NCBI GenBank assembly: GCA_903842345.1
Contig: CAIMLR010000026.1
Span: forward strand, 62,001-126,000
Source of the DNA: an uncultured Myxococcales bacterium
Lineage (GTDB): Bacteria > Myxococcota_A > UBA9042
DNA length: 64,000 nucleotides
Direction of reading: 5' to 3'
The stretch's first letter is position 1. Every line of letters starts with the position of its first letter. The notes under the pieces were generated by a model that was not told the origin of the DNA, did no database searches, and saw only the letters and a program-made list of their open reading frames with translations. The position numbers were made by a program, and so were the translations under genes. Below are positions 9,158-31,136 of the stretch, one piece after another.

Positions 9158-10306
9158 ATGCCACGCGCCTCCAGCATCTTTCCAGTCCTCGGTCGACGCC
9201 ACGCGCTGGACGCCGACATGCGCGCGGATCATCAGGTCCGCGTCCTCGCGGATGCCCACGACGCGTGGCAGGTTCTGCTGGGCGACATCGGCCGCGCCAA
9301 GGTGTCGATCCTGATTGAGATGTACATGCTCGTGGACGACGCCGCCGGGCAGATCTTCGTCGCGGCGCTGGGCCAGGCAGTTGCGCGCGGCGTGGACGTG
9401 CGCATGACGATTGACGCGGTGGGTTCGCTGGACGTCGCAGGCAACCTGCCCGAGCAGCTGGACGACGTCGGCGTGAAGTGGCGGTTGTTTCATCCGGTGA
9501 CGGCGCAGACGCCGTGGAAACATTGGCTGCAGCGCAATCACCGTAAGCTGATGGTGTTTGACGAGCAGGTCGCCCACGTCGGCGGGCGCAACGTGGGCGA
9601 AAAATACTACGCGATGACGCCGGGCGAGCCGGTATGGCTGGATCTGGGCGCGCGCGTCGAGGGACCGTGCGTCGCGCCGATGGCGGCTGTGCTCCGCGCG
9701 CACTGGCGCAAGGTGCCGCGCGTCAAGGTGCCGCCGCCGTCCGTGGCCGGTCCGACGCTGGTGACCCACGCGTTCAATCTGGGCGGATCGCGCAAGGCCT
9801 TTGCCAATCGGCGGATGCTTCAGGCTGTGCGGAGCGCGAAGCAGAGCATCCACCTCGTGCAAGCCTATTTCCTGCCGAACTGGGCGCTCCAGCGGGCGCT
9901 TGTCAGCGCGGCGCGACGCGGCGTGGATGTACGCGTTATCGTGCCGGATTTGCGGACGTCAGACGTGCCGATCGTGGCGCTCGGCAGCGAGCACGGCGTC
10001 GGGCGACTGCTCAAGCGCGGCGTGCGCGTATTCGCCCTCACACGCGGCGTGATGCACGCGAAGTTCATGGTCATCGACGGCAAGTGGTGGACGATTGGCT
10101 CCGCAAACATGGATCCGCTGTCGCGGCTGCGCAATCTGGAAGCCAACATCGTTGGCATCGGCGAGGCGGAGGCGGGCGACGTCGAACTCTACTTTGACCA
10201 AATCGCCGCGATGGCGGAAGAGCTATCGTGGGACAAATGGCAGCAGCGTCCGCTCCTGCGGCGGATGGGCGGCGCGATCCTCTGGCGCCTGCGCGGCTTG
10301 GCGTAG
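9158..10306 (+). CDS. Phospholipase D family / cardiolipin synthase-like
   Basis: 382 residues. Two HKD phosphodiesterase motifs are intact: HRKLMVFD (H128, K130, D135) and HAKFMVID (H300, K302, D307), each followed by the Gly/Gly-Asn or Ser-Ala-Asn tract (GGRNVG; GSANMDPLS). This is the organisation of ClsB-type cardiolipin synthases, which join phospholipids at the inner membrane, although no transmembrane helix is present at the N-terminus. A phosphatidyl-transfer role is inferred from the family. Start chosen at the ATG 9158; the frame remains open upstream to 9011, but that part overlaps the divergent methyltransferase gene. Confidence 0.85.
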   Translation: MPRASSIFPVLGRRHALDADMRADHQVRVLADAHDAWQVLLGDIGRAKVSILIEMYMLVDDAAGQIFVAALGQAVARGVDVRMTIDAVGSLDVAGNLPEQLDDVGVKWRLFHPVTAQTPWKHWLQRNHRKLMVFDEQVAHVGGRNVGEKYYAMTPGEPVWLDLGARVEGPCVAPMAAVLRAHWRKVPRVKVPPPSVAGPTLVTHAFNLGGSRKAFANRRMLQAVRSAKQSIHLVQAYFLPNWALQRALVSAARRGVDVRVIVPDLRTSDVPIVALGSEHGVGRLLKRGVRVFALTRGVMHAKFMVIDGKWWTIGSANMDPLSRLRNLEANIVGIGEAEAGDVELYFDQIAAMAEELSWDKWQQRPLLRRMGGAILWRLRGLA

Positions 10307-10324
10307 CGGGGATACATCCCTGAA

Positions 10325-10393
10325 TTGGCTCGGAGCCAAAGTTCGTGTGTCGCCGCGCATCGGCCCTCAAGGACGCGAGCTTGGCGACCCAGC
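10325..10393. repeat. Intergenic hairpin element, copy A
   Basis: A 48-base core (10346-10393) begins TGTGTCGCCGCGC and ends GCTTGGCGACCCAGC. The same two ends, exactly the same distance apart, recur at 29378-29425. GTCGCC (10349-10354) can pair with GGCGAC (10383-10388). Just before it, TTGGCT (10325-10330) can pair with AGCCAA (10334-10339), a tight 6-bp hairpin. The element lies directly after the phospholipase D gene and before the convergent small membrane-protein gene, so it could act as a terminator; it might also be a dispersed repeat or a degenerate coding fragment on the minus strand. Confidence 0.5.
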
Positions 10394-10453
10394 CAGCAGC
10401 CTAACGAGGCCCACCACCGAACAGCCGTTGATCTCCGGCCCTGGCAGGCGCGT

Positions 10454-10738
10454 TCAGTGCTCGCCGGACGGGCATTCCAGACAGCGCTGCGCGCACGTGA
10501 CGCCGGTCGGCAACAGGGAGCACTGGGCGACTTCGCTCCGCCGCGACTGCGTCCACGGCCGGGTCTTGCGACTCTCCACGACGATATCGGCGGATTCGCC
10601 CGTCGCAGGACACTGCACCTGCCGCGCCGTAAGCACCCGCGAGGCGACAACAATCGCCGCGCCGAGGAGAATCCCAAGCGTCACGGCGATGACGCCGTAG
10701 GCCGGAAGAACGCTGTTGAACACGCCGACTGCAAACAT
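10454..10738 (-). CDS. Small Cys-rich single-pass membrane protein
   Basis: 94 residues. The start is set by a strong Shine-Dalgarno (GGGAGG, 5 bases before the ATG at 10738). Residues about 10-35 form one transmembrane helix (YGVIAVTLGILLGAAIVVAS). The short soluble tail contains QVQCPATGESADIVV and then CSLLPTGVTCAQRCLECP, five Cys in all, which might bind a metal or form disulfides. The spacing of CP-x-TG and the later Cys cluster looks like a conserved small protein family, but I do not recognise a named one. Function unknown. It stands between the convergent phospholipase D gene and the tldE/tldD pair, in the same direction as the latter. Confidence 0.65.
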   Translation of the reverse strand: MFAVGVFNSVLPAYGVIAVTLGILLGAAIVVASRVLTARQVQCPATGESADIVVESRKTRPWTQSRRSEVAQCSLLPTGVTCAQRCLECPSGEH

Positions 10739-28450: not shown

Positions 28451-29341
28451 ATGACCCGCGCGCGCCTGCTGATCGCACTGTCGCTCGCGCTCGCGCTGCA
28501 GGTCGGATGCGCGACCGGCATTCAGCAAACCGCGGTGCTGCCGTGGGTGCGCGGCGGCTGGTCGTTCTCTGGTACGGATTTTGTCGCGCGCGATCCCAGC
28601 GGCACGTCGATGCCCGTCCACATTGGCGGCGACTCCGGGCGGATTCAGGACATTGGCACCGTGACGCAGATTCTGCTGGCGATGGACTTGCCGTTCATGC
28701 GGGCGTCGATGGCGCCCGCGTTGCTGGGCAACAACAACGTCGAGTTCATCCAGGCCGACCTGCTCTACAAGCACCTCATTGTCGATGAGCCAGGGCGGCG
28801 CTGGTGGCTGCTCGCCGGCCTGGGCGCGATGATCCTGAACACCGGCGTGTCGTTCACGACGCATCCGACGCAGAACACCGTCATCGCCGGCCACAACGTG
28901 ACGCCTGACGACACGATCAACTACACCGCGCGGCGCGACGCCAGCGGCATCTACGCGGCGCTCGGCGCGCAAGTGGAGCTGACCGGCTGGTGCCACGGCT
29001 ACGTGGAGATGCTCGCCCGGCTGTCGCACTCGGAGAGCCAGTATGAGTCGATCACCATGCCGATTGGCGCCAACGGCACGACGGTCGACCTCACGGGTGC
29101 CAACTCCAACGTGACGCTCGATCGCCAACTGCAGGGCAGCGTGACGACGAACTACACGGTGCCGACGTTCCTGCTGTCCGTCGGCGTCCAGTTCAACCTG
29201 CCGAGCTACCACGTCACGCGCCGGTTCGTGCACTGGCACGCGGGCGATCCGGCGATGGACGAACTGCCGCCCGAGCCTGAGACGCCGCCGCCGCCGCAGC
29301 CCTTGATGCCCGCTGAGGCGCTGACGCCGACCGCGCCGTAA
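28451..29341 (+). CDS. Barrel-like outer-membrane lipoprotein
   Basis: 296 residues. The lipobox LQVGC gives a predicted lipidated Cys20. The mature part alternates short amphipathic strands and Gly/Asn/Asp turns (VHIGGDSGRIQDIGTVTQIL, WLLAGLGAMILNTGVSFTTH, YVEMLARLSHSESQYESITM, FLLSVGVQFNLP), similar to small eight-strand outer-membrane barrels, and ends with a Pro/Glu-rich tail (ELPPEPETPPPPQ). Function unknown. Three bases behind the YbjN-like gene, so probably one operon; its stop is followed by copy B of the intergenic hairpin element. Confidence 0.55.
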   Translation: MTRARLLIALSLALALQVGCATGIQQTAVLPWVRGGWSFSGTDFVARDPSGTSMPVHIGGDSGRIQDIGTVTQILLAMDLPFMRASMAPALLGNNNVEFIQADLLYKHLIVDEPGRRWWLLAGLGAMILNTGVSFTTHPTQNTVIAGHNVTPDDTINYTARRDASGIYAALGAQVELTGWCHGYVEMLARLSHSESQYESITMPIGANGTTVDLTGANSNVTLDRQLQGSVTTNYTVPTFLLSVGVQFNLPSYHVTRRFVHWHAGDPAMDELPPEPETPPPPQPLMPAEALTPTAP

Positions 29342-29350
29342 GGGGCCGAG

Positions 29351-29425
29351 TCGAATCCATTCGATCCGCGACCAGCTTGTGTCGCCGCGCGTATCGCCGC
29401 AGGCGGGCGCGCTTGGCGACCCAGC
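29351..29425. repeat. Intergenic hairpin element, copy B
   Basis: The 48-base core (29378-29425) has the same 13-base start and 15-base end as the element at 10346-10393, in identical spacing, with about half of the inner bases changed. GTCGCC (29381-29386) pairs with GGCGAC (29415-29420), and inner GCGCG/CGCGC extends the stem. TCGAA (29351-29355) and TTCGA (29360-29364) form a small upstream hairpin. It occupies the 220-base gap after the barrel-like lipoprotein gene; nothing else was recognised in that gap. Confidence 0.5.
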
Positions 29426-29561
29426 GACAAGCAAAGGGCCCGACCGAAAATTTGGAATGCCGAGTTGTTCTCGTTGGCGCTAAGCACTTCTCGCCAGCGC
29501 GGCGGACATCGCGTAGTTTTGTCGCGCCATGCTTTCGTCGCGTGGCTGTCACGAGGCCGTC

Positions 29562-31136
29562 ATGTTCCTGCGCATTTTTCCGCTGTTCATCGCCGCTGGG
29601 CTGCTTGTGCCGGCCTGCCAAGCATCGCCGCCGCCGGACACGACGCCGGCAGTCGATGGCACCGCGCTGCTGTCGACCCAAGGCCGCCGCGGTCTGGGCC
29701 ACCACGCCGACGTGCCAACCGCCGAGGACCCGCGGATTCCGGCGGACATGCTGACGCTGCTGGGGCAGCTTTTTGGGGAGACGGTCGTGCTGGCCGGCGA
29801 GCCGCATCAGCCGCTGACGGCGGACAGCGCGCCGCCGCCGGCGATCGGCGCCAATCCGCACACGCTCGTGCGCTTTGTGCATCTGACGGACACGCAGCTT
29901 GTCGACGATGAATCGCCGGCGCGCAACTGCGTGTTTGACGCGGCGGGAACGACGGACGGCGCGTTCCGGCCGCAGGAAGGCTATGGTTGCCACATGCTGG
30001 ACGCGGCGGTGCGCGCGGTGAATGCGCTGCACGCGAGCCTGCCGCTGGATTTTGTCCTGACGGGCGGCGACAACGTTGACGATGCCCAGCGCAATGAAAT
30101 GCAGTGGTTTGGCAAGGTGCTCAACGGCGGGCCGGTGGAATGCGACAGCGGCGCGGACGACGGCGACAAGCCGGGGCTGACGTTTCCGCAGAAGCGCGCG
30201 TTTACCGCCGCGGGGCTGAACGTGCCGTGGTACTGGGTGAGCGGCAACCACGACGTGCTGGTGACGGGCGTCTACAAGGTCGACGCGGCGGAACGGGAGC
30301 TCGCGACGGGGACGACGCCCGTGATGGGCGCGCGCGACTACCGGCAAGTCGGTGCGCCGGTGACGACGGAGGAAGTGCCGGCGGATGCGCTGCGGCTACC
30401 GCTGTACGCGACGGAGATCGTGGCGGAAGTGAAGGCGATGGCCGACGGACCGGGGCCGCACCTGCACGGCCTGGCGAGCGTCGCCGCGGACAATCCGTAC
30501 ATCCAGTACCGCGCGACGCCTGTCGCCAATCAGCCGGTGGACATCATCGCGCTGGACAGCAACGCGCACACGGGCGGGTCGGATGGCGTGATCTACGCGG
30601 ACGTGTTTGAGAAGCAGATCCGCCCGCTGCTGGAAGCCGCCCAGGCCGCGGGCCACTTCGCCGTTGTCGTCGCGCACCACGGCTCCGGCGCGATGGGCGA
30701 CGGCGGCGATCCGTTTGGCACCTCGCAGCTGGGGACGATGACGCCCGAGCAGTTCCGCCGTGAGCTGTCCAAGTACCCGAACGTGCTGTTCTATCTCGCG
30801 GGGCATTCCCATGTGAACCGGATCACGCGGTATCAGCCCAAGGACGGGGACGTCGTGCGGCCGTTTTTTGAAGTGCAGACGGCGTCGCTGGCGGATTGGC
30901 CGTCGCAGATGCGGCTCATTGAGTTGATCGATGCGGACAACGGCTTCATCGCCGCCAAACTCACCGCTTTTGACACGCCGGCGCAGATTGGCGGTCAGCC
31001 AACCAACGAACTCGCGCAAGAGGCGCTGCGGCTGATGACGATGGACCGCGCGTCTGGCTGGGATGTGAACCTCGGCGAGGGCCTGCTGACCGATCGCAAC
31101 ATGCTCCTCTGGATCAAGAAGCCCGCCGGCATGTGA
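29562..31136 (+). CDS. Exported calcineurin-like metallophosphoesterase
   Basis: 524 residues from ATG 29562 (GAGG upstream). The signal ends at VPACQAS; Cys may be lipidated although the lipobox is imperfect. Metallophosphoesterase motifs in order: VHLTDTQL (the usual DxH is DxQ, as in several exported phosphodiesterase-like members), FVLTGGDNVDD, WVSGNHDV, VVAHHGSG and FYLAGHSHVNR. These bind a two-metal centre and cleave phosphate esters; the substrate is unknown. The protein should lie in the periplasm or on the outer membrane. A 220-base gap with hairpin element B separates it from the lipoprotein gene before it. Confidence 0.8.
   Translation: MFLRIFPLFIAAGLLVPACQASPPPDTTPAVDGTALLSTQGRRGLGHHADVPTAEDPRIPADMLTLLGQLFGETVVLAGEPHQPLTADSAPPPAIGANPHTLVRFVHLTDTQLVDDESPARNCVFDAAGTTDGAFRPQEGYGCHMLDAAVRAVNALHASLPLDFVLTGGDNVDDAQRNEMQWFGKVLNGGPVECDSGADDGDKPGLTFPQKRAFTAAGLNVPWYWVSGNHDVLVTGVYKVDAAERELATGTTPVMGARDYRQVGAPVTTEEVPADALRLPLYATEIVAEVKAMADGPGPHLHGLASVAADNPYIQYRATPVANQPVDIIALDSNAHTGGSDGVIYADVFEKQIRPLLEAAQAAGHFAVVVAHHGSGAMGDGGDPFGTSQLGTMTPEQFRRELSKYPNVLFYLAGHSHVNRITRYQPKDGDVVRPFFEVQTASLADWPSQMRLIELIDADNGFIAAKLTAFDTPAQIGGQPTNELAQEALRLMTMDRASGWDVNLGEGLLTDRNMLLWIKKPAGM

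Follow-up and report, generated by a model that had tools for sequence, protein, structure and literature searches.

A 48-nt hairpin shared by two kinds of probable miniature transposon that abut stop codons in freshwater myxobacteria

We analysed a stretch of 64,000 nucleotides from an uncultured Myxococcales bacterium (the window), which contains two related 48-nt sequences, copies A and B. Taken as a whole, the observations are best explained if A and B each form the core of a non-autonomous miniature transposon (MITE), the two being of different kinds that share a hairpin, and we regard this as very probable. The mobile MITE nature of the elements and their position abutting stop codons are well supported. 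The hairpin is dispersed over several genomes, its elements insert with target duplication and adjoin stop codons, its paired bases covary, and it is shared between element types. Matching ends and duplications in the sequence suggest which transposase moves which element, and the job of the hairpin within the elements is one that we infer.

Results

The preliminary description of the window had reported that A and B (Table 1) are equal in length, are identical in their first 13 and last 15 bases, can both form GTCGCC/GGCGAC pairs and both follow a forward gene, and each of these points held on re-examination, the pairing by folding. The gapped end pattern occurs twice in the window and in none of 100 shuffles. 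What had been overlooked is that longer mobile elements surround both 48-mers as their core, and that copy A also lies between convergent genes. Each 48-mer forms the central hairpin of a MITE-like element of about 120-145 bp, and only the core is common to A and B because each of them belongs to a different kind of transposon.

Table 1. Hairpin cores, elements and neighbouring genes in the window.
Feature	Position	Strand	Basis
Hairpin core, copy A (48 nt)	10346..10393	+	Sequence, gapped-pattern scan, fold, core alignment
Hairpin core, copy B (48 nt)	29378..29425	+	Sequence, gapped-pattern scan, fold, core alignment
Element A, IS630-type (alpha) MITE, 142 bp	10313..10454	+	Aligned with 40 other alpha copies
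PLD-like gene upstream of A (open frame from 9011)	9158..10306	+	PF13091/PF00614, gene call
Small convergent gene; its TGA stop uses the terminal base of element A	10454..10738	-	Gene call, sequence
Element B, TNA-type MITE, 139 bp	29342..29480	+	Filled/empty comparison with G001-G004
Left TAA copy of target duplication, stop codon of gene 28451-29341	29339..29341	+	
Right TAA copy of target duplication	29481..29483	+	
Gene without Pfam match, its stop codon the target of B	28451..29341	+	
Metallophosphatase-like gene downstream of B	29529..31136	+	PF00149

The site of element B can be read directly. All four relatives of the same genus (G001-G004) possess both genes but lack the element between them; in the window's own genome (G000) the stop TAA is followed by 139 bp, a second TAA and then sequence alignable to the relatives, three of which were aligned. 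The insertion of element A is shared by G000 and G002 and absent from G001, G003 and G004, and its flanks have decayed from CTA/TAG to GGA/CAG.

A scan of the whole 5.85-Mb genome for the two ends at fixed distance, as proposed earlier, found only A and B with both ends exact, whereas covariance models matched more copies. One end (TTGGCGACCCAGC) occurs exactly eight times in G000, seven of them within recognisable copies and the eighth (L006) weak. A covariance model built from A and B (R1) gave 15, 30, 30, 17 and 28 matches at E<=0.1 in G000 to G004, respectively, whereas 14 other relatives yielded no match at this cut-off; a second model built from 15 diverse cores (R2) gave 13, 30, 31, 16 and 30 at E<=1e-4. 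G000-G004 represent one freshwater myxobacterial genus. Beyond it, R2 matched at the same threshold in other genera of the family (G012, five matches; G006 and G020, one each) and in none of 30 genomes from other families of the class, 52 genomes being searched in all, so the core is present in at least four genera. The chance resemblance that would have followed from a lack of copies elsewhere in the genome and in relatives is thus contradicted by copies in both, and the suggestion of a dispersed palindromic element proved right, the family being dispersed through several genomes.

Among named genomes, the exact pattern was found in 21 stretches, all in four MAGs of uncultured Myxococcales bacterium; a plasmid collection held no match to a 123-nt beta element (see below), and viral contigs held none to the exact pattern. 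The 157 raw hits in 166 loci were reduced to 116 distinct places, some of them weak and probably due to chance (L027 and L028, for example), and with the core as search bait these counts favour conserved cores, a bias partly offset by end-based searches. At one site (L010:368 in G000, L070:1213 in G002) the core is kept in both species, between genes that look by eye like atpD and atpC. In G006, two further perfect hairpins flank the core (L226), unlike the copies in the window's genus.

Sorted by their flanks, 41 of the 116 places are alpha, 28 are beta with delta, 13 are gamma and 34 are of other kinds; the 82 aligned copies range from 109 to 153 bp. Alpha elements measure 141-147 bp in 40 of 41 cases and 153 bp in the other. 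IS630 elements prefer CTAG as a target, and alpha copies are flanked by CTA on the left in 25/41 and TAG on the right in 29/41, as expected of TA duplication at CTAG. Beta elements, mostly 123 bp, carry TNA on the right in 23/28 and on the left in 14/28, identical on both sides in 9/28; slid controls gave 0-1 on the right and 0-6 on the left. Gamma flanks are noisier (TNA left 5/13, right 7/13, identical 1/13), a point that counts against the explanation offered here. Judged by eye, the ends of the copies in G012, a member of another genus, are related to these, and copy L224 lies between TCA and TCA. The same gap between genes holds an alpha element in G002 (L085) and a beta element in G001 (L095), with equal core orientation.

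As is typical of MITEs, the elements are short, non-coding and present in many copies, judging by their lengths, copy numbers and a negative coding test. The alpha, beta, gamma and delta ends are imperfect inverted repeats by eye, though weak in B itself. Target-site duplications and empty sites were found for B, and duplications in the beta flanks; at A the flanks have decayed and differ. Autonomous partners with matching ends (ISAzo13-family and IS630-type) occur in related genomes, and none was found in G000. The first is an element of about 1.3 kb in G003 and G004 with a transposase of the ISAzo13 family (PF07592, E 4.5e-136); its first 37 bases match gamma at 26 positions, and in G004 it is flanked by TTA/TTA. 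A search for gamma ends in five genomes returned 27 loci: 16 with a core close by, four autonomous ends and seven with neither. As the terminal repeats of B are weak, it is the TNA duplication and the relatives that link B to ISAzo13.

For alpha, the right end matches the 3' end of a transposon located at the start of two G001 contigs. The peptide encoded next to it shares 61% identity, over 36 residues, with the C-terminus of a G003 transposase (DDE_3, PF13358). Of this IS630-type element of G001, the assembly contains just the 3' end, at those two contig starts. Insertion of IS630-family elements takes place at TA, which is duplicated in the process (PMC2170065). No alpha ends were detectable on the IS630 copy of G002 (L180). 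The core is absent from all autonomous copies examined, the G001 IS630 having been examined at its 3' end only. In G000 neither a DDE_3 transposase nor a gamma-type end was found, so that current mobility there is no more than possible.

Could the 48-mer instead be a REP-like hairpin, mobile in itself, a third kind of element that entered both types of MITE? The core is common while the arms differ, and some copies have no recognisable arms, as such an origin would predict; yet no consistent flanking signature surrounds the core, and matches to alpha ends (<=1 mismatch; G001 and G002) nearly all adjoin a core, the exceptions by eye being two IS ends. We consider this improbable.

Several arrangements involve neighbouring repeats. 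The alpha right arm begins with the element's own end in inverted copy (CTAAACATGCC ... GGCATGTTTAG). In some delta elements the right arm is a palindrome of the element's end. A 34-bp inverted pair of ISAzo13-like ends serves as the delta right arm at L206:1501-1534 and L196:1485-1518. In G002, alpha copy L071 interrupts another repeat, which this genome also contains intact (L067/L070); at these three loci a multi-copy intergenic sequence (CGTCGCGCGGGCACTAGGCTTTTGGCC...) is the target or neighbour of alpha elements. At L048, L069 and L132 (G004, G002 and G001) the core is orthologous and its far side directly duplicates part of the 3' end of the preceding gene, L069 being cut by a contig end. 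At the end of contig 217 of G004 (L080:562-780), an 88-bp tandem repeat comprising the last codons of a gene plus the core runs into the contig end; L130 clusters with L080 and possibly represents a further end of an array of this sort. In the alpha left arm, a second conserved hairpin was considered but found no support, its fourth pair being an A/C mismatch in 26/40.

The folded core has stems of 6, 5 and 3-4 bp, with a TT bulge between the first two, an internal loop between the second and third, and a three-base loop at the tip. The core alignment comprised 94 distinct sequences of the 110 scoring 19 or more, omitting four of other lengths and six lower-scoring places. The 15-pair hairpin is formed in 87% of its cells, and 64 cells show double changes against a shuffle mean of 24 and maximum of 34 (300 shuffles). 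Among the 15 diverse cores, 91% of cells are paired, the ten double changes (shuffle mean 3.0) were reached by 0/500 shuffles, and the covariation score exceeds all 500, which keep relatedness in. The RNAalifold covariation term is small, and single folds are only moderately better than shuffles (z -0.5 to -2.3). In 25 of 110 cores the length is 46 nt, both partners of one base pair having been lost. At curated thresholds Rfam 15 matched only a tRNA elsewhere in the window and neither core nor element; a sub-threshold match of a ribosomal leader to the core at B (E 1.2; 15.1 bits against 34.1) was taken as chance.

Across five orthologous insertions, the core differs at 31/240 positions and the arms at 135/447; in the three alpha pairs with well-defined arms, the figures are 17/144 and 65/286 (p 0.006). 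In one of these pairs, L015/L118, the element has diverged more than its flanking genes, which are 93-96% alike. From these few orthologous pairs, the core is likely to be under constraint in place. One alternative is that these are ordinary MITEs in which the core is functionless filler and its sharing one chance capture. MITE features fully explain the position and spread of the copies, and modular repeats such as BOX occur in bacteria (PMC3049150); the compensatory changes in the hairpin, the slower divergence of the core than of the arms and the carriage of the core by at least four genera all speak against filler, and we hold this alternative to be possible but doubtful.

The preliminary description had also entertained a coding origin. 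Read on the minus strand, A and B give WVAKLASLRADARRH and WVAKRARLRRYARRH, and three of the seven differing codons are indeed synonymous. This reading, in which a repeated small gene was once translated in the W-V-A-K frame and left these remnants, could further appeal to a frame free of stops in 92 of 94 distinct cores. Stop-free 45-mers are, against this, expected at the window's 67% GC; over 70 distinct 48-mers the synonymous share is 0.227 in the W-V-A-K frame and 0.19-0.25 in the other five; the common 2-base deletion shifts any frame, as the 46-nt cores have lost both partners of one pair; and the arms are not common to the element types. The suggested comparison between covariance and codon conservation thus revealed compensatory pairing changes and no synonymous excess in that frame. 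The A/B synonymy is a small-number effect, and we give a gene remnant almost no credence, the comparison of frames having already refuted it.

Stop codons were placed by a codon-usage score trained on the window, at the 106 of 116 places with at least 250 nt on both sides. The distance from core to best-scoring stop peaks sharply at the element ends, with a stop codon exactly at one end in 60/106 places. Of 120 called stops, 61 fall inside windows of 3-5 nt, which were fixed after the peaks were known and agree with independently aligned element ends. Over all types, 20 stops lie at the left end and 41 at the right, so the core can face either way relative to the gene. Among alpha places, 22/37 have the stop at the right end and 1/37 at the left; in the favoured orientation, an A supplied by the element restores TAA. 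This codon accounts for 16 of these 22 stops and for 5 of 43 stops in the window. Where both neighbours could be called (n=68), the pairs were convergent at 27 places, tandem at 37 and divergent at four, the corresponding numbers of gaps in the window being 7, 29 and 6. The p value is 0.012 for the excess of convergent pairs and 0.18 for the deficit of divergent ones. No intrinsic (Rho-independent) terminator, that is, a hairpin plus a T run, was found at A, nor a U-tract at either core; one weak match near B (29497-29514) lies outside the element and core.

Such positions, together with the neighbour arrangement and the strength of the hairpin, would also suit a host 3'-end signal, whether terminator or RNA stabiliser, that transposons have spread and that has been retained because of what it does as RNA. 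The lack of a U-tract, the varying orientation of the core and the 46 of 106 copies without exact stop adjacency argue against it, and we think this account possible though doubtful. Neither an orientation preference nor a U-tract favours any one RNA role, which counts against assigning one.

Discussion

Our preferred explanation, two kinds of MITE with a common core, has three parts. First, A would be mobilised by an IS630-family transposase with duplication of TA at CTAG, and B by a transposase of the ISAzo13-family type with a 3-bp TNA duplication. Second, a stop codon or something close to one is found in both target motifs, and a stop would be rebuilt by the element ends; insertions exactly at gene ends would consequently be harmless and accumulate. 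Finally, the common cargo of both kinds of MITE would be the 48-nt hairpin module. As to what the hairpin does, we tentatively place first a two-sided 3'-end structure in the host transcript, which would block read-through or exonucleases and so make the insertion tolerable; a cruciform joining the transposon ends ranks second, as the next most likely role. As to how both kinds came by the same hairpin, it is possible that small elements landed beside a core and then moved jointly with it, in the manner of a miniature composite transposon, a lead given by the inverted own end in the alpha right arm and the palindromic delta right arms.

Tiny transposons are well known, and MITEs tolerated at gene ends are the ordinary part of this picture. 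RUP of Streptococcus pneumoniae, 107 bp and proposed to be mobilised by IS630-Spn1, is likewise a small non-coding element with ends like those of an IS630 relative and a TA target (PMC2229807); its sequence and host differ, and the available text of that report describes no hairpin shared with MITEs of another transposase family. BOX in the same species encodes a stop codon at the extreme 3' end of 36 genes, and pneumococcal repeats are enriched between convergent genes (PMC3049150). BOX thus resembles the present elements in modularity, stop-codon overlap and convergent enrichment, but, as described there, is built from modules boxA/B/C, whereas here one hairpin core is combined with elements differing in ends and target duplications. 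QMITE2 of Coxiella, ERIC and SPRITE are also intergenic or 3'-UTR stem-loop MITEs (PMC10969869, PMC3049150), to which no sequence relation was found at the curated thresholds of Rfam. The ISAzo13-family IS (PF07592) of G003/G004 shares gamma-type ends and, in its TTA/TTA, the type of duplication, but is autonomous, measures about 1.3 kb and lacks the hairpin.

The unusual part is that one hairpin module occurs in the MITEs of two transposase families and is conserved in place better than their arms. A literature search, with subscription journals mostly outside its reach, found nothing on a hairpin module common to the MITEs of two transposase families, nor on miniature inverted repeats in Myxococcales. 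A bolder proposal, which we put forward as a possibility short of likely, is that the 48-nt hairpin acts as an independent module: MITEs belonging to two or more transposase families would have captured it, in four or more genera of one bacterial family, selection would preserve its stem once inserted, and genes would receive from it a ready-made 3' end exactly at the stop codon.

In summary, these observations suggest that transposons of different families carry the same cargo, and that target motifs resembling stop codons, together with ends that rebuild stops, offer a route to harmless insertion in compact bacterial genomes. If the hairpin works in transcripts, selfish DNA would supply the 3' ends of genes; and if the hairpin is a module of its own, transposons would install 3'-UTR structures genome-wide.
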